From a bacterium (GTDB lineage: Bacteria > ARS69): a stretch of DNA of 26,558 nucleotides. Each line of letters opens with the position of its first letter. Position 1 is the stretch's first letter. The position numbers and the translations under genes were made by a program. The stretch is from positions 1 through 26,558 of the forward strand of contig JALGZO010000509.1 of assembly GCA_025774865.1 (NCBI GenBank). The letters are read 5' to 3'. The notes below the pieces were generated by a model that made no database searches, was not told the origin of the DNA, and saw only the letters and a list, made by a program, of their open reading frames with translations. Below, piece by piece: positions 2,375 to 11,979 of this stretch.

Positions 2375-2774
2375 CGGCGCGGCCAACGCTCATGGCCGCG
2401 GCTACCGCCGGGCGCTTCCGAGATGCTCGAGTCCGGCGGCCGCCGCCGTGGTGCGGCCGTTCTGCTAGCTCTCAGTCCGGCGGAGCGGCGAAGCGAGCCC
2501 CGGCTTGCCAGGCGGCCATAGGGCCCAAATCCCTCCTCGAAACCCTCGAGACCCCAGAATAGCCTCCTCCGGCGCCGGCTCCCGGAGTCGCCGGGTCCGC
2601 GCGCTCAGACACTATGAGTTAAAGAAAACATCTGATTCGGCCGTCAACTGGAGGAGGAGAGGGCGGGCAATGAGCAGATAAGAACAGCTCGCATACGAGC
2701 AAAGACCTCGGGAGCCGGTCGCCGTCAGGGCGTCGGAGGGGGGACGGTGGCCCCTCGAAACGGAGGTCGAATTG
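2375..2774. other. 400-bp intergenic region, no gene seen
   Basis: The stretch lies between the DUF11 gene and the first tandem lipoprotein gene. Immediately after the stop codon there is a perfect 7-bp inverted repeat (listed separately). Around 2611-2640 there is an A+T-richer patch (ACTATGAGTTAAAGAAAAC) that could contain a promoter for the downstream gene, but no convincing paired -35/-10 is visible. A small stem GCTCG-CATA-CGAGC occurs at about 2688-2701. The frames open here have no recognisable product and overlap the real genes. Confidence 0.5.
2378..2400 (+). terminator. GC-rich hairpin just after the DUF11 gene, possible terminator
   Basis: CGCGGCC (2378-2384) pairs perfectly with GGCCGCG (2394-2400) across a 9-nt loop, starting 4 bases after the TAA stop. 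There is no T-tract, so it is not a canonical intrinsic terminator. Its position fits transcript termination or 3'-end protection. Confidence 0.35.
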
Positions 2775-3758
2775 ATGAAGTGGCCGGAGTGGACCACTCC
2801 GACCGGGCTCGCAACCGCGGTCCTGTTCCTGATGAACGCTTGCGGGCCGACCCCCCTGATGGATGATTCGGCCCCGATCGACCCCGAACCGTCCCGCACC
2901 ATCTCCGAGTCGTTCGAGATGGCGCAGGCAGAACGATTCCTGAAAGGCAACGAGTGGCAGCTCGACGTGGAGCGTTACGCTCGCGACGGGAGCCTCATCA
3001 CGACGAACGCCGGTCAGGACTTCTTCTGGATGCGCACCCAGCTCGATCAGGAGCTCGACGCACCCGGAACACCCGCGCTCTGTGCGCATCTCTCCATCCG
3101 GATGGTCTACGACTCGAACGGCCAGATCGACTTCCCACCGGACTCGTTCTGGCGGCGCTACAACGACGCAATGCTTCCGCACGCGCTCCTCGATGCGCAA
3201 GGAATCCCGATGCGGTGGCCCGGGTACGAAATCTCCTGGGCACTCGATCCGACGACGGATCCGTACTCGACCCTGGCGCAGTTCATCGCTCAAGAATGGG
3301 CTACGGAGTTCGCTCAGCCGGACGGACGCTTCGGTGTCTACTTCGACGATTATCCGGATCTGTACCCGAACATGATGGCGGAGCTCGGCATCGAGGGAGC
3401 GCGCTACATCGAGATGCGTGACGCGTTTCGGGCCGGGCGCACTTGGATCGTCCGGGATCTTCGGGATCGCTTCGGTGACAGCATCGTCCTGACGGTCAAC
3501 TGGGCGAAGGACGAGGACATCCGGAAGATCGACATGATGGATTCGCTGGACGGGATCGGCCTCGAAGGGTTGCTCACGTCCGCGCGCAAGTCGATTCTCG
3601 ACGCCCAGTACAGTGCGTGCGTGGAGAAAGGGCGATCCTGCCTCTCGACGGCGTGGAACGACGTCATTCCCGACGACCTACCGTATCCGATCGTGAGACC
3701 GGGCTCTCACTGGATAGTCCGCTGGTACGAAGGAGACGAGCCGGGGAGCCCCAACTGA
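2775..3758 (+). CDS. Putative glycoside-hydrolase-like lipoprotein, tandem copy 1
   Basis: The ATG at 2775 is chosen because a perfect GGAGGT (2762-2767) sits 7 nt upstream; a TTG one codon earlier is too close to it. The 327-aa product has a hydrophobic leader ending in LMNAC-G, a plausible lipobox, so it is probably a lipoprotein. The mature part resembles TIM-barrel hydrolase relatives: GVYFDDYPDLYP carries adjacent acidic residues at the end of a predicted strand, and GIGLEG later supplies a glutamate. That D...E arrangement is common in putative glycosidases such as the GHL families. I cannot assign a CAZy family or substrate. The gene directly downstream (4022-5011) encodes a close paralogue. 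The alternative is a conserved lipoprotein without enzymatic activity. Confidence 0.8.
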   Translation: MKWPEWTTPTGLATAVLFLMNACGPTPLMDDSAPIDPEPSRTISESFEMAQAERFLKGNEWQLDVERYARDGSLITTNAGQDFFWMRTQLDQELDAPGTPALCAHLSIRMVYDSNGQIDFPPDSFWRRYNDAMLPHALLDAQGIPMRWPGYEISWALDPTTDPYSTLAQFIAQEWATEFAQPDGRFGVYFDDYPDLYPNMMAELGIEGARYIEMRDAFRAGRTWIVRDLRDRFGDSIVLTVNWAKDEDIRKIDMMDSLDGIGLEGLLTSARKSILDAQYSACVEKGRSCLSTAWNDVIPDDLPYPIVRPGSHWIVRWYEGDEPGSPN

Positions 3759-4021
3759 CGACGCACGAGTAGGGGGAGCCTCGACGGTCATCGATGCGTT
3801 GATTTCACGCGCGGCGGCGCGGCATCGCGCCGCGCTGCCCCGACGCGAAGCGCGTTCGAGGCACAGACGAGTCTAGCGCCGCCGGAGGCGTGATTCCAGG
3901 ACTCGCCGGTCATGAATTCCGCGGAGGCCATTCGGGCGTTGCGGTCGAGTTCGGCGCGCCGTACATATCAGGATGGGACCTGTCCGAAAAGTCGGCTTCT
4001 CGGGTGGCTGGGGGGTGCTCA
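3759..4021. other. Spacer between tandem paralogues, no gene seen
   Basis: These 263 bp contain the strong hairpin at 3813-3839 and no ORF with a recognisable product. The frame of the second paralogue is open through the last 130 bp, but that translation has no signal peptide and is unlike the other paralogue, so it is treated as untranslated. A promoter for the second gene may lie here; none is clear. Confidence 0.45.
3813..3839 (+). terminator. Strong GC hairpin between the tandem paralogues
   Basis: GGCGGCGCGGC (3813-3823) pairs with GCCGCGCTGCC (3829-3839) around a 5-nt loop, giving an 11-bp stem with one G-U pair. No T-tract follows, so termination is possible but unproven. It lies about 55 bp after the stop of the first paralogue and well ahead of the second one, which suggests the two copies may not be simply co-transcribed. 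Confidence 0.4.
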
Positions 4022-5011
4022 ATGAACGGGATCGTGAGGGCGCGGGCCCTCGTTCTTACGCTGGCCGTGCTGTTCAGCTTCGGTTGCCGCGACCGCGGTC
4101 CGGTGTCGGCCGGACCGCCTCCTCCGAAACTGCCGGGCGGTTCGACTCCCCAGTCGACTCCCGAGTCGTTCGAGATGGCCCAGAGGGAACGATTCCTGAA
4201 GGGGAACGAGTGGGAGCTGGACGTCGAGAGGTACGGCCGCGACGGCAGTCTCGTCACGACGAACGCAGGCGTGGAGCTGCCCTGGATGCGGGCGCAGCTC
4301 GAACTGCTCGATGCTCCCGGAACCCCGGCGCTCTGTGCCCACATCTCCGTCCGGATGGTCTACGACTCCAACGGCCGGATCGACTTCCCCGAATCCTCGT
4401 TCTGGAGGCGCTACAACGACGCGATGCTCCCGCACGCGCTCCGCGACGACGAAGGGAATCCGATTCGGTGGCCGGACTTCGAGGTCTCGTGGGCGCTCGA
4501 TCCGACGACGGATCCGTACAAGACCATGGTCGATTTCATCGCTGAAGAGTGGGCGGAGGAATTCGAGCACCGGAACGGTCGCTTCGGCGTGTACTTCGAC
4601 GACTATTCGGATCTCTATCCGCCGATCATGGCCCAGATGGGAATCCAGGGCTCACGTTACATCGAGATGCGCGACGCCTTCCGGGCCGGCCGGACCTGGG
4701 TCGTCCGGGAGCTCCGGGGCCGGTTCGGCGACGGCATCGTCCTCACGGTCAACTGGGCCAAGGACCAGGACATCCGGAAGATCGACATGATGGAAGCGCT
4801 CGACGGAATCTGCTTGGAAGGTGCCCTCACGCCTCTGCGGAACGTGATTCTCGAAGAGCAGTACCAAGCGTGCGTCCGGAACGGACGCTTCTGCTATTCG
4901 ACGGCCTGGAACGACGTCATTCCCGGCAACCTCCGGTATCCGACCGTGCGGCCAGGCTCCCACTGGATGGTCCGCTGGCACCAGGGGAACGAGCCCGGCA
5001 GTCCCAACTGA
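4022..5011 (+). CDS. Putative glycoside-hydrolase-like lipoprotein, tandem copy 2
   Basis: The frame is open further upstream, but the ATG at 4022 starts a good lipoprotein leader (MNGIVRARALVLTLAVLF, then SFGC) and has a G-rich ribosome-binding segment (GGGGGGTG) a few bases before it. The product is 329 aa. From ESFEMAQ to the identical end EPGSPN it aligns with the 2775-3758 product almost without gaps, roughly three quarters identical by eye. The leader and the proline-rich linker are unrelated. The putative acidic residues are kept (GVYFDDYSDLYP and GICLEG). Three cysteines of the mature part (CAH, QACV, RFCYS) have counterparts in copy 1. Function is inferred only at the level of a TIM-barrel, hydrolase-like extracytoplasmic lipoprotein. 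Confidence 0.8.
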   Translation: MNGIVRARALVLTLAVLFSFGCRDRGPVSAGPPPPKLPGGSTPQSTPESFEMAQRERFLKGNEWELDVERYGRDGSLVTTNAGVELPWMRAQLELLDAPGTPALCAHISVRMVYDSNGRIDFPESSFWRRYNDAMLPHALRDDEGNPIRWPDFEVSWALDPTTDPYKTMVDFIAEEWAEEFEHRNGRFGVYFDDYSDLYPPIMAQMGIQGSRYIEMRDAFRAGRTWVVRELRGRFGDGIVLTVNWAKDQDIRKIDMMEALDGICLEGALTPLRNVILEEQYQACVRNGRFCYSTAWNDVIPGNLRYPTVRPGSHWMVRWHQGNEPGSPN

Positions 5012-6986: not shown

Positions 6987-8357
6987 TCAGTCCACGTAGC
7001 CGAGAGCACGGAGCTGCTCGATCACCTCGGCGGGGGTGTCGGTTCCGACCGTCGCGGCTGGGGCGCGCGCCTCGACGATCTCGCGGTGCCGGGTGCTGAG
7101 CTCTTCCACGACGTGGGGGAGCTGCGCCGCGACGTTCACCGTCTCGCGCGGGTCGCGGGCCAGATCGAAGAGCTGCTCGTTGTGGAGCTTCCAGCGGCCG
7201 GTGCGGATTCCGAGACTGTCCGGGTCCGACTTCTTGTCGCGGCGGCCGACGGCCGGAAGATCGGAGGCCGGCTGGCCGGCGACGAGGGGCCCGAGGTCGC
7301 GGCCGGAGAACTGGGGAGGCGCCTCCAGCTCGAGCGCGGCCAGGAGAGTCGGGGCCAGGTCGATCCCGCGCACCTGCTCCCTCACGATGCGCCCGGCGTG
7401 CGCGCTCGTCGGAAACTTCACGACGGCCGGCACGAGAAGCAGCTCGTCGAAGAGCGTATGCGAGTGCCACCCCACGGACTTGCGCTCGGCGAACTCCTCG
7501 CCGTGATCCGACACGAGGACGACGATCGTATCGTCCCAGAGGCTGCGCTCCTTCAGGAACGCGACGAGGTCACGGAGTGCGCGGTCGCTGGAGCGAAGCT
7601 CGGCGTCGTAGGTCGCCGCGATGTGGCGGATGTCCGCCCACGTCACCGGTCGGGCTCCCCGGTTGATCTGCTTCAGCAACTGGACCGAGACGCTGTCGGG
7701 AACCAGACCGCGGTAATCGGATTCGAAGACATCCAGCCACCGGGGGTCGGGAGTGTACGGGTGATGGATCTCGTACGAATGCAGGAAGACGAAGAAAGGA
7801 CCGTCCACGGACTCGATCCATTCCATCCCTCGGCGGACGGCGTGAGAGAGCTTCGTCTCCGGTCCGACGAGCGTCTCCGGCCGGTCCTCGGCGGAACGGC
7901 TGCTCTCGTAGGTGTCGAACCCCCGATCCAGTCCGAACGACGCGTCGAGCTGGATTCCCCCGTTGAACGAGGCGGTCGCGTAGCCGGCCTCGCGAAGCAC
8001 TTCGGCGAGCGTCGGCACTCGCGGTGAGACCATCAGCCCCTTCGGCACGGACGCGCTGTGGTGGTGGGGAAGCAGCGAGGTGAGAAGCGAGGCGTGGGCC
8101 GGCAGCGTCGACGGTGAGTGCGACACGAAGGTCCGGAAGAGAACGCCGTCTCGGGCGAGGCGATCGATCGCCGGGGTCGTCGGCCACGGGTATCCGTAAG
8201 TCCCCAGGTGATCGGCGCGGAGCGTGTCGATCGAAACGAGGACGAGGTTGGGGGGAGGTCGCGGCTCATCGCTCGGCCCGCCGCACCCGGCCCCGAGCCA
8301 GGCGATCGAAAGGGCGACGGCGAGCGACCGCCGTGGCCGAAACCGCGCGGCCCTCAC
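6987..8357 (-). CDS. Sulfatase/alkaline-phosphatase-superfamily lipoprotein
   Basis: The open frame extends to 8984, but the real start is the GTG at 8357, which overlaps the TGA of the propeller gene by 4 nt (GTGA) and begins a leader ending LGAGC (Cys25), a clear lipobox. The 456-aa product has the sulfatase fold signature NLVLVSIDTLRADHLGTYGY, with metal ligand Asp44, then STLPAHASLLTS and later VSDHGEEFAE. The nucleophile motif normally reads C/S-x-P-x-R; here it is T84-L-P-A-H88. It therefore lacks the cysteine or serine converted to formylglycine and may use threonine, as phosphotransferases of the superfamily do. It is the last gene of a four-gene minus-strand operon. Substrate is unknown: a periplasmic sulfo- or phospho-ester hydrolase or transferase is the likely class. 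Confidence 0.88.
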   Translation of the reverse strand: MRAARFRPRRSLAVALSIAWLGAGCGGPSDEPRPPPNLVLVSIDTLRADHLGTYGYPWPTTPAIDRLARDGVLFRTFVSHSPSTLPAHASLLTSLLPHHHSASVPKGLMVSPRVPTLAEVLREAGYATASFNGGIQLDASFGLDRGFDTYESSRSAEDRPETLVGPETKLSHAVRRGMEWIESVDGPFFVFLHSYEIHHPYTPDPRWLDVFESDYRGLVPDSVSVQLLKQINRGARPVTWADIRHIAATYDAELRSSDRALRDLVAFLKERSLWDDTIVVLVSDHGEEFAERKSVGWHSHTLFDELLLVPAVVKFPTSAHAGRIVREQVRGIDLAPTLLAALELEAPPQFSGRDLGPLVAGQPASDLPAVGRRDKKSDPDSLGIRTGRWKLHNEQLFDLARDPRETVNVAAQLPHVVEELSTRHREIVEARAPAATVGTDTPAEVIEQLRALGYVD

Positions 8358-9448
8358 CGTGGCAGCTGGTACGCGCGCAACGATCCGTCGAGCGTTCCGA
8401 CGTAGAGCACGCGATCGGCCACGGTGAAGGTCCGGACCATGCTGTCGAGATCGAAGAGGGGCGACGCGGATCCGTCCGCGAGATCGAAGGCGAACACTTC
8501 GCCGCGCTCGTTGCCGGCAAGGACGCGGTCGTCGAGAACGAACGGTCTCTTCGTCGTCCACTTTGAAGTGTCCGGAGGCGGGTGGCTCCAGCGGATCGTT
8601 CCGTCGTCCGGATCCAGCGCCAGGATTTCGCCGAAGGGCTGCATCCAGTCGACGAACAGCACGAGCAACGAATCGGCCGGAACCAGGTCGCCGTTCGGGG
8701 CGGCCGGTACCAGGTGAATCGCGGCCGTTTCGCCGGTCGCGCGACTCAGGCGGTGCACCAAACCGTCCTCCGTTCCGACCAACACGTCGTCCGCGAGGAT
8801 CAGAGGGTTCGTCGTGATCGGCGCCGACAGGAAGCGCTCCCACAGAATCTCGCCGGTCCAGGCGTCGAACGCGAGCAGGGTGGCACTTAGCGGGGCCCAG
8901 AAGACGACCTCGCCGGCGACGGCCGGTGTCATCAAGCCGAGGTCGGGCCCTCCCGACTCGTCGGGGCCGGCCTGAAAGGACCACGCGATCTCACCGGTCT
9001 CGCGATCCAGACAAAAGAGCTCCTCCTCCAGGGTGCCCACCCAGAGGAAGCCGTCACGCTCGATCACCGCGGTCGCGACGCCGCGCCCGGCCGGCAGCCT
9101 CCAGCGAACGTCTCCGGTGTCGCGATCGAACGCCCACAGCGCTCCTTCCTGCTGGCTGTCCGTCCCCACGATCGCGAGCTCGCCGTCGAGGTGAATGTCG
9201 CCGTGAAACTGCGAGCCGCCTTCGTCCGGCCGCGTGTCGACCGACCAGACGACGTGGCCATCGTCGCGACGGAGGCAATAGAACGAACCGGAGCAGGAGC
9301 CCACGAAGAGCACGTCCCCCGAGACCTCGGGGGGGCAGTAGATTCATCCACCCAGGTCGTGATGCCATAGAAGAACGAGCGAATCGTCGGCAGCGGGTGA
9401 GATTTCCGCCAGCAGCAAGAGAGCGGCTCCCAATCTGAAGATCGGCAT
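8354..9448 (-). CDS. PQQ-like beta-propeller protein with an in-frame TGA at codon 35
   Basis: The ATG at 9448 has a GAGGAGAGG ribosome-binding site and lies 11 nt after the upstream GT2 stop. It encodes a signal peptide (MPIFRLGAALLLLAEISPAA) and then LLWHHDLGG. Codon 35 (9346-9344) is TGA, and the same frame continues as IYCPPEVSGDVLFVGSCSG with no other stop for 329 codons. Together the two parts match the usual first PQQ blade (W..D.GG.[IV]..sP.v.gd.v.vGS..G), so the TGA replaces a single residue in an otherwise intact 364-codon gene. At least five repeats of the type LFCLDRETGEIAWSF and LYVGTLDGSLRAY follow, giving an extracytoplasmic propeller that probably scaffolds or binds ligand. 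A GTG at 9313 could restart translation, but without a signal peptide. The gene may be a recent pseudogene, contain a base error, or be recoded (see the hairpin entry). Confidence 0.75.
9316..9346 (-). other. TGA codon with SECIS-like hairpin directly downstream
   Basis: On the minus strand, TGA (9346-9344) is followed by 10 unpaired bases and then a perfect 7-bp stem: CCCCCGA (9333-9327), loop GGTC (9326-9323), TCGGGGG (9322-9316). The first loop G is 17 nt after the TGA. The Escherichia coli fdhF selenocysteine element also has a GGUC loop closed by A-U, about 18 nt after its UGA. Bacterial SECIS elements typically need a stem-loop close behind UGA with a G at the start of the loop. Against this, no bulged U is present in the stem, and the bases also encode the ordinary propeller residues PPEVSGD in GC-rich codons, so the fold may be coincidental. 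Confidence 0.3.
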
Positions 9449-9459
9449 CCGACCTCTCC

Positions 9460-10725
9460 TCAGGCGACGGCCTTCCCCGGCAGAGGCTCCGCGGGCGTGG
9501 CGCGACCGTTGCGCGCGACACGTATGACACGTCCGTCCCCCTCGAGGAAGTACGTGAGATCCTTCCAGTTGAGTCGCCGGCGACGGAGGGTGACGTGCGC
9601 GCAGGCGAGGAGGCTGGCGCCGGGCACCAGAATGGACGCGCCGAACCACGCGTGCACGGACGGTCTCTCCGGAATCAGGAACCTGAAGAGGAAGAACGTC
9701 ATGAACGCCCCGACCCCGGTGAGGATGGCCATCCCTCCGGCCCAAGGACCGGCCGGCCACGCGTGATGAATCAGGTGGTACCCGCCGTGGAACGCTCCGA
9801 GCCAAAGGGTCGCGACGTTCAGCGCCATCATCGTGCCCAGCACCCAGTAGAGGGAGGGAAGGTACGTCTTCACGAAGAAGAACTGCCGCCCGAGCCACCG
9901 GACGAAGCTGCGATAGCTCGTGATCTCCGAATGGGAACTGACGAGGAACTGCGCGATGGGAGTCACTCGCAGGCGTGACCGCTTGAGCACGCGACTCAAC
10001 GTCATGTCGTCGACGACCGTGCGGCTCCAGATCTCGGCCAATCCGTAGCGCTCGAAGACGTCCGCGCGGATGGCCATCGACCCGCCCCACGTAGCGCCGC
10101 GGCACACGAGGGCCGCGAGCGATTGACACGCCTCGGCGATGCCGTGCAACGCGGAGATCAGGCGTCGCCCCTCCGGGGCGATGTAGTGGAAGCTCGTCGA
10201 GGCTTCACTCTGCCGGGTCGCGAGCGGTCGGACCATCATGCGCAGCCACGAAGGTCGAACGAGCAAATCTCCGTCGCAGAACGCGTAGACGTCGAGAGAG
10301 CCGTGCCGCGCCTCGCTGTGACGGATTCCGGCGAGCAGATTGAAGTTCTTCTGAGCGCATCGCATCCCGGTGTCGAGGACGCGTCCGGCGACCACGTGAT
10401 CCGACCGGCCCAGATCGGGCAGGACCTCGCCGAGTCGGATCGCGGCGGCATCGCCCTCGGATGCGGCCGCCTCCGTGACGAACGTGATTCCGAACTCTCC
10501 GGGATAATCCTGCCGGGCGAGGGCCCGGGCGGTCTCCGCGAGTCGCGGCAGGTTTCCCTTCAGGCAAACGAAGATCCGAGTCCGCGGCCAGTGATCCGGG
10601 TCGGTGCGGTCGCGCAGGTGGCTCCTCCACGAGAGGAAGCCGCGGATCGTGCGCACCCAGAATCCGACATTGAAGGCGAGCGTCAGAATGGCGATTCCGA
10701 GAGTCACGATGCCGAGGATTTCCAA
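9460..10725 (-). CDS. Membrane-bound family-2 glycosyltransferase (ceramide-glucosyltransferase/HpnI-like)
   Basis: The 421-aa protein is read from a TTG at 10725 with GGGAG about 7 nt upstream; no ATG fits better. An N-terminal TM anchor (residues ~3-25) precedes a cytosolic GT-A domain: FVCLKG with LARQDYP, the acidic C150-D-G-D153 motif (DxD-like metal and nucleotide-sugar binding), VVDD (D239-D240) as probable catalytic base region, and R272-SFV-R276-W277, close to the (Q/R)xxRW acceptor motif. Three or four TM helices follow (~285-385). This layout matches GT21 and HpnI-like enzymes that glycosylate membrane lipids. It sits 30 nt after the radical SAM gene and 11 nt before the propeller gene, within one operon. 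Lipid or polyprenyl acceptor is inferred; the sugar is unknown. Confidence 0.85.
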   Translation of the reverse strand: MEILGIVTLGIAILTLAFNVGFWVRTIRGFLSWRSHLRDRTDPDHWPRTRIFVCLKGNLPRLAETARALARQDYPGEFGITFVTEAAASEGDAAAIRLGEVLPDLGRSDHVVAGRVLDTGMRCAQKNFNLLAGIRHSEARHGSLDVYAFCDGDLLVRPSWLRMMVRPLATRQSEASTSFHYIAPEGRRLISALHGIAEACQSLAALVCRGATWGGSMAIRADVFERYGLAEIWSRTVVDDMTLSRVLKRSRLRVTPIAQFLVSSHSEITSYRSFVRWLGRQFFFVKTYLPSLYWVLGTMMALNVATLWLGAFHGGYHLIHHAWPAGPWAGGMAILTGVGAFMTFFLFRFLIPERPSVHAWFGASILVPGASLLACAHVTLRRRRLNWKDLTYFLEGDGRVIRVARNGRATPAEPLPGKAVA

Positions 10726-10755: not shown

Positions 10756-11979
10756 CTACCAGCCCATCAACCCACAGCAGCGGGAACAGATGGGCATCAG
10801 GCCGTCCTTCTTCAAGCTCTGACGGAATTTCCGGTACTGATCGTTGTTCCAGATCGTCAGGAGATCGTCCTTCTGGATGTTGCCGCAGACGTAGTCGGGG
10901 TAATCCCGGCACGTTGCGACGTCACCGTTCGGTAGGATTTCGGTGACGACCCACGGCTGGATGCAGCTTCCGTAGCCGAAGCGTTTCGACGGGTCGGCGT
11001 AGTACTCGGGAATCTGATCGAGGTCGAGATCCGGGATGAACATCAGCGGGAATGGCCATTTGCGCGACCGGATCGAGTGGACCTCCTGCCGCAGCGCCTC
11101 ATCATCGAGACCGGTGAAGAAGAGGTATCCCTTCCATGCCTCCGGCTCGACTCCGAAGCGTTCCTGCATGACCTGAGCGTGCTGGCGGCCGTGCTCCTCG
11201 TTCGTGAACCAGGAGTAGTAGTAGGTGAGTAGATCGATCCCCTTGTCCACGCCCCAGTCGGCGATGTCCTCGAGATGGCCGACGTTGTCGCGAGAAATCG
11301 TCGCGAGAACGTTGACGTAAGGCCTGGAGGACTTCTGCCGCTTCTTCTCGGCGAGGACCGCGTCGAGACCCTCCATCATGAGGTCCCACGCGCGGGGCTC
11401 CTGCCGGATCTCGTTGTGGACCGGACCGATGCCGTCGACCGAGAGCATGAGCATGTCGACCCCGGCCCGGACGAGCCGAGCGGCGGTCTTCTCGAGCATG
11501 GTGCCGTTGGTCACGATCCCGACCGCCCCCTGCCTCCGTTTCATGTGCTCCATGAGCGGCATGATGTCGGGGTAGAGGTAGGGCTCGCCGCCCCAGATGT
11601 AATAGAAGGGCTTTCGGGGTGCGAGCTGATCGACCATCCGCCGGTACGTCTCGTACGGCACGATCTCGCGGATCTCGTCCGCGGATTTCTCGTGGTTGTA
11701 CCCGGTTTCGCCCCACTGCCCGCAGGTCTTGCAGCGCAGGTTGCACGAGTTGACGATCTTCAAGCTGATCTGGCGAAGGGTGTGGCTGACTCCGTCGGTA
11801 CGGCGCCGATCACGTGGGGCGAAGAAATGCTTCGTGGCCTCGGCCTGGACGAGGCGCCAGAAGAGGTCGGGCGTCCGAAGGATCACCGAGGAGAGATGCC
11901 GCACCGGGATTCGGCTGTTTCGCGCCCCGGACCCCGGTCGCTCGTCGACGAGCCTGGCTTCGTGCTCGGTGGTCGCCAT
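10756..11979 (-). CDS. Radical SAM/SPASM domain protein
   Basis: The ATG at 11979 is preceded by AGGGAG at good spacing. The product is 407 aa. Residues 79-86, CNLRCKTC, are the CxxxCxxC loop that binds the [4Fe-4S] cluster used to cleave S-adenosylmethionine. WGGEPYLYPDI fits the G-G-E-P SAM-binding motif and MLSVDG lies on a later strand. The C-terminus is cysteine-rich (GSCIQPW ... TCRDYP ... YVCGNI ... C398-SR-CC402), the pattern of a SPASM domain binding auxiliary Fe-S clusters, preceded by EILPNGDVATC. Such enzymes modify peptides, sugars or other small substrates; no precursor-peptide gene is visible next to it. It is the first gene of the minus-strand operon and could modify the glycan or lipid handled by the GT2 enzyme, which is inference. 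Confidence 0.9.
   Translation of the reverse strand: MATTEHEARLVDERPGSGARNSRIPVRHLSSVILRTPDLFWRLVQAEATKHFFAPRDRRRTDGVSHTLRQISLKIVNSCNLRCKTCGQWGETGYNHEKSADEIREIVPYETYRRMVDQLAPRKPFYYIWGGEPYLYPDIMPLMEHMKRRQGAVGIVTNGTMLEKTAARLVRAGVDMLMLSVDGIGPVHNEIRQEPRAWDLMMEGLDAVLAEKKRQKSSRPYVNVLATISRDNVGHLEDIADWGVDKGIDLLTYYYSWFTNEEHGRQHAQVMQERFGVEPEAWKGYLFFTGLDDEALRQEVHSIRSRKWPFPLMFIPDLDLDQIPEYYADPSKRFGYGSCIQPWVVTEILPNGDVATCRDYPDYVCGNIQKDDLLTIWNNDQYRKFRQSLKKDGLMPICSRCCGLMGW

Follow-up and report, generated by a model that had tools for sequence, protein, structure and literature searches.

A conserved in-frame UGA codon is very probably read as selenocysteine in a small family of exported bacterial beta-propellers

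The propeller gene studied here contains a single in-frame TGA with a hairpin shortly downstream, which raises the question of whether this codon is a mutation or error, a genuine stop, or a site of selenocysteine (Sec) insertion. The gene lies on the minus strand at 9448-8354 of the window (the whole stretch of 26,558 nucleotides that was analysed), and its frame reads MPIFRLGAALLLLAEISPAADDSLVLLWHHDLGG-TGA-IYCPPEVSGDVLFVGSCSG..., continuing for 329 codons past the TGA at codon 35 (9344-9346) to a TGA stop (8354-8356); read with Sec at UGA35, the product has 364 residues. The frame is open on both sides of this one TGA, and the product matches Pfam PQQ_2 (E 1e-37). Judged from the sequence, a strong ribosome binding site, GGAGAGG (9453-9459), stands 4 nt 5' of the ATG, and the codons before the TGA encode a likely signal peptide (MPIFRLGAALLLLAEISPA, 9392-9448) and the first propeller strand. 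The sequence-only reading of this DNA had described the same gene layout, the TGA at codon 35 and a 7-bp stem with a GGUC loop starting 10 nt after it, all of which we confirmed; it had named selenocysteine as an option and had taken a recent nonsense change or base error to be the simpler explanation. Our results favour the former. We consider it very probable that UGA35 is decoded as Sec in an exported propeller, and we infer the incorporation of Sec itself from a UGA shared by six genes, the presence of the Sec machinery and a covarying SECIS-like hairpin.

The glycosyltransferase gene immediately upstream (Glyco_transf_21; 9460-10725, minus strand) ends 11 nt before the propeller ATG, and the two genes are likely to form one transcription unit. 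A radical SAM/SPASM protein is encoded further upstream (10756-11979) and a sulfatase downstream (6987-8354, start approximate), both on the minus strand. Elsewhere, the window encodes two tandem paralogous secreted proteins (2772-3758 and 3890-5011; ESFEMAQAERFLKGNEW...) and a protein (20-2374) that contains DLAVTKTVDDPAPNEGGTVVYTV repeats and has a FlgD-like sorting tail at its C terminus.

The window copy and five further homologues make up a six-gene family, the homologues being 31-36% identical where full-length. One homologue belongs to another genus of the same taxonomic family (G002), and the rest, found by profile search, come from three genomes of another phylum (G368, G386 and two copies in G388). 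All six genes carry TGA at the same column. In the closest relative, that of G002 (JALGZR010000048.1; 36% identity), the TGA is the sole in-frame stop, and DILWQFDTEG-U-VFSTPAVAGDLLLIGSC aligns with LLWHHDLGG-U-IYCPPEVSGDVLFVGSC of the window. Five of the six genes are intact except for the TGA, while one G388 copy lacks about 54 residues and loses the frame farther down. An alignment of homologues at codon 35, proposed earlier as a check on TGA or Cys conservation, thus bore out the TGA but yielded no Cys: neither Cys nor any other sense codon occurs at this column among the six members from the genomes searched, which are a partial sampling. The residues directly after the UGA codon are conserved as I/V-Y/F. 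The UxxC spacing first noticed (U35-I-Y-C38) occurs only in the window copy, and the conserved partner is instead Cys52, in a GSC motif (codon at 9293-9295). The N terminus of every member is hydrophobic or lies in frame behind a membrane protein.

Apart from the G002 record, a contig scan with a two-sequence query returned a single generic propeller, whose residue at the column was neither Sec nor Cys; viral contigs held no relatives, plasmids held only generic propellers of less than 30% identity, and broader, partly overlapping genome samples added no further phylum. The second G388 copy (L107:8872-9831, contig C45), with its internal deletion and frameshift, resembles the G002 copy (56-64%) more closely than it does the other G388 copy, and this closeness suggests that the gene may have been transferred between phyla.

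Several explanations without Sec have to be weighed against these alignments. The UGA could be a true stop that closes a signal-peptide leader ORF, with re-initiation then producing a truncated, perhaps regulatory, propeller. GTG codons do lie 11 and 14 codons past the TGA in the window, but downstream starts fall at differing places in the members, and in G002 there is none for 79 codons. Such a product would lack both the signal peptide and the propeller's first strand, and the conservation of I/V-Y/F and the invariant Cys52 would be left without a reason; we regard this explanation as very unlikely. A nonsense mutation or a sequencing or assembly error, making the gene a pseudogene or hiding a true sense codon, is highly improbable and, for practical purposes, disproved by the homologues. 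It might be suspected from the state of the window genome, a 4.7-Mb draft in 785 contigs with 8.3% estimated contamination, and from a comparable propeller that has a lone TGA in another column. However, the identical TGA column recurs in six genes of two phyla in which up to about 70% of the residues differ, and five of these genes are otherwise undisrupted. In addition, the comparison of G368 with G386 shows 6 silent and 2 amino-acid changes over the 21 codons before the TGA and 13 silent versus 8 amino-acid changes over the 60 codons after it, so that both sides look constrained as protein. The G368 genome is assembled in 10 contigs and is 95% complete, and a base error there is therefore unlikely.

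Two propellers outside the family also have in-frame stop codons. The comparable propeller mentioned above (L070:867-1481, minus; contig C141 of G289) has its TGA at a different blade position (GG-TGA-DG) and is a useful control for isolated nonsense changes. The other (L072:1501-2151; contig C21 of G124) has a TAG two residues before the Sec column (WTYQT*GAVRTTPV), for which an amber nonsense change, an error and pyrrolysine are all conceivable.

A search of the genome for selA, selB, selC and selD had also been suggested from the sequence, and it recovered the whole set: a SelA match (2.5e-135), tRNA-Sec with anticodon TCA, selB and selD. The SelD of this genome is a Sec-containing form (AGUASK), and UGA therefore stands for Sec as well as stop in the window organism. 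SelB was found in all 12 genomes tested; tRNA-Sec is present together with selB in G002, G368 and G388. No selD above the cut-off was found in G002, and no tRNA-Sec in G386, whose genome is 82% complete. Four genomes of the window's family contain Sec-type selD genes followed by long hairpins (L051, L050, L052 and L053), with loops unlike the nGUn type seen in the propeller genes.

The SECIS-like hairpin of the window (9316-9333, minus strand) is a perfect 7-bp stem in which CCCCCGA (9333-9327) pairs with TCGGGGG (9322-9316) around a GGTC loop (9326-9323), the stem beginning 10 nt and the loop 17 nt after the TGA. A hairpin lies at a constant distance in all six genes, with an nGUn loop that is GGUC in four and AGUU in two. 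Three alignment pairs vary on both sides while remaining paired: 15/30 (G-C, U-A or C-G), 20/25 (A-U or C-G) and 21/24, which closes the loop (G-C or A-U). At pairs 15/30 and 21/24 both sides are third codon positions and the changes are silent. Pairing is broken at 15/30 in G002 and at 14/31 in the second G388 copy; over the six genes, 95% of the alignment cells are paired. Covariation exceeded that in all or all but one of 500 shuffles and in every slid control, six related sequences being few for such a measure, and an nGUn loop on a stem of 5 bp or longer occurred in none of 46 other PxVxG blades, all without UGA. Shuffling of synonymous codons gave probabilities of 0.03 to 0.22 per gene for the stem and loop together; this is weak support by itself, since the PxVxGD motif already makes hairpins of this kind likely where the DNA is GC-rich, and covariation and the blade control support the hairpin more strongly.

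The SECIS of E. coli fdhF likewise has GGUC in its loop, at about 17 nt from the UGA, whereas the window stem is without the bulged U. The perfect 7-bp stem does not have the bulged U that E. coli-type elements carry in the upper stem, and an Rfam scan matched no SECIS family, its one chance match lying far below the gathering score. The missing bulge had been raised as an objection to selenocysteine; it is a feature of the E. coli type and carries no weight outside it, and many bacterial SECIS elements do not resemble the E. coli ones at all (PMC13188914). The bSECIS model describes a loop of 3-9 nt located 16-37 nt after the UGA with G in the first two loop positions, an upper stem of 4-16 bp and a minimum free energy of at most -7.5 (PMC13188914), and the window hairpin (GGUC, 7 bp, 17 nt, -14.4 kcal/mol) falls within each of these limits. 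Decoding of the UGA as some other amino acid, whether through a suppressor tRNA or under a genetic code in which TGA is sense, might be entertained from the assorted residues that generic PQQ propellers have at the column matching residue 35, but it is scarcely credible, as TGA is the stop of both the propeller gene and the neighbouring glycosyltransferase gene, the TCA-anticodon tRNA found is tRNA-Sec, and the hairpin fits a Sec insertion model.

With UGA35 read as Sec, SelB and tRNA-Sec would insert the residue under the direction of the nGUn-loop hairpin 17 nt downstream, and the product would be exported and fold as an eight-bladed BamB-like propeller. An AlphaFold2 model built on two sequences (mean pLDDT 84.4) is a propeller whose nearest structure is the eight-bladed BamB (Z 38.5 over 335 residues, 2.4 A, about 18% identity), and on this model and match the protein has the eight-bladed fold of BamB. 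The best NCBIfam match, TIGR03300 (BamB), scores 115.7 bits against a cut-off of 285.2, and TIGR03075 (PQQ-dependent alcohol dehydrogenase) 63.8 bits against 480.05, so that both lie below their thresholds. Across the five full-length members, positions 35 and 52 are the only invariant thiol positions; His82 (FHGD/E motif of blade 2; codon at 9203-9205), Asp97 (codon at 9158-9160) and Glu143 are also invariant. Blade 1 has strands at 41-43 and 46-50 in the model; Sec35 would immediately precede the innermost strand, and Cys52 would directly follow the one after it. From this strand register, Sec35 and Cys52 are predicted to be neighbours where the central channel ends, and His82, Asp97 and Glu143 to fall at or close to the equivalent positions in blades 2 and 3; residues 82 and 97 would occupy places in blade 2 like those of 35 and 52 in blade 1, Asp97 being in the register of Cys52. 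On this basis, a site may be located at one end of the channel.

The most likely work of such a site is reversible selenol/thiol redox chemistry, in which Sec35 and Cys52 would act outside the cytoplasm as a redox pair near the channel end and could form a selenenylsulfide; we hold this tentatively, at close to an even chance. As a second choice, which we think rather unlikely, the same two residues of the same selenoprotein could form an extracytoplasmic binding site for a soft metal or a metalloid (arsenite, mercury or copper). Several recent selenoprotein families have been tied to metal resistance (PMC13188914), and the G002 gene stands behind genes for an arsC-like protein and an ACR3-type permease, in frame with the latter; however, no arsenic or metal genes lie beside the other copies. 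The arsenic link is possibly local to G002, because the neighbours of the other copies are unrelated: a glycosyltransferase and a sulfatase in the window, and an M13 peptidase in G368 and G386. Assigning a function from gene neighbours was rejected, since the contexts differ in every lineage. At the G002 locus (L060:9000-11786, contig C238, minus), the arsC-like arsenate reductase (LMWPc), the ACR3/SBF-type permease and the propeller follow in a row, and the permease frame enters the propeller without a stop. This is a possible natural fusion, and the product may be a permease-anchored propeller. As for the origin of the redox or metal-binding site, we offer, as a conjecture somewhat short of even odds, that a Sec/Cys/His/Asp selenoenzyme site at the propeller mouth arose directly with Sec and had no Cys enzyme as its forerunner, and that the PxVxGD codons of the gene itself gave rise to the Sec insertion element. 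The family offers a compact and testable system for the origin of a Sec insertion element within a coding motif. Genes of this kind can pass for pseudogenes or truncated genes in draft genomes.

Known selenoproteins mostly belong either to the thioredoxin-like proteins or to the redox and metal enzymes that have Cys counterparts. Against this background, the best reading of the locus is that it belongs to a small family of exported bacterial selenoproteins, not catalogued before, in which Sec decoding itself is ordinary. With its UGA kept across two phyla, the residue is almost certainly Sec, and it is the first known to us on a BamB/PQQ-type beta-propeller. The 2026 catalogue of 119 prokaryotic selenoprotein families (PMC13188914) has no propeller, PQQ or BamB entry, nor do the deep-Sep paper and the 2022 review, and among open-licence papers none pairs a selenoprotein with PQQ propellers.

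Like the 119 catalogued families, many of which are thioredoxin-like, the family has an in-frame UGA, the Sec machinery, a bSECIS-type hairpin and a possible redox or metal role (PMC13188914). Cys homologues exist for most selenoproteins (PMC12013277), whereas none was found for this one in the partial sampling of genomes searched. Tetrathionate hydrolase of Acidithiobacillus is also an extracytoplasmic eight-bladed PQQ-type propeller (Z 34.5, 14% identity) and carries out sulfur chemistry without PQQ, but it has no Sec and follows another mechanism, a cysteine-independent catalysis that rests on Asp325 (PMC10859504). BamB (YfgL) is likewise an exported eight-bladed PQQ-like propeller; the present protein differs from it in carrying Sec35 and Cys52, and the window copy is without a lipobox, a lipobox-like AAC/LAC motif being found in the G368 and G386 copies. 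A conserved Sec on a propeller of the BamB/PQQ type, with no Cys form found, would add a new fold class to the selenoproteome.
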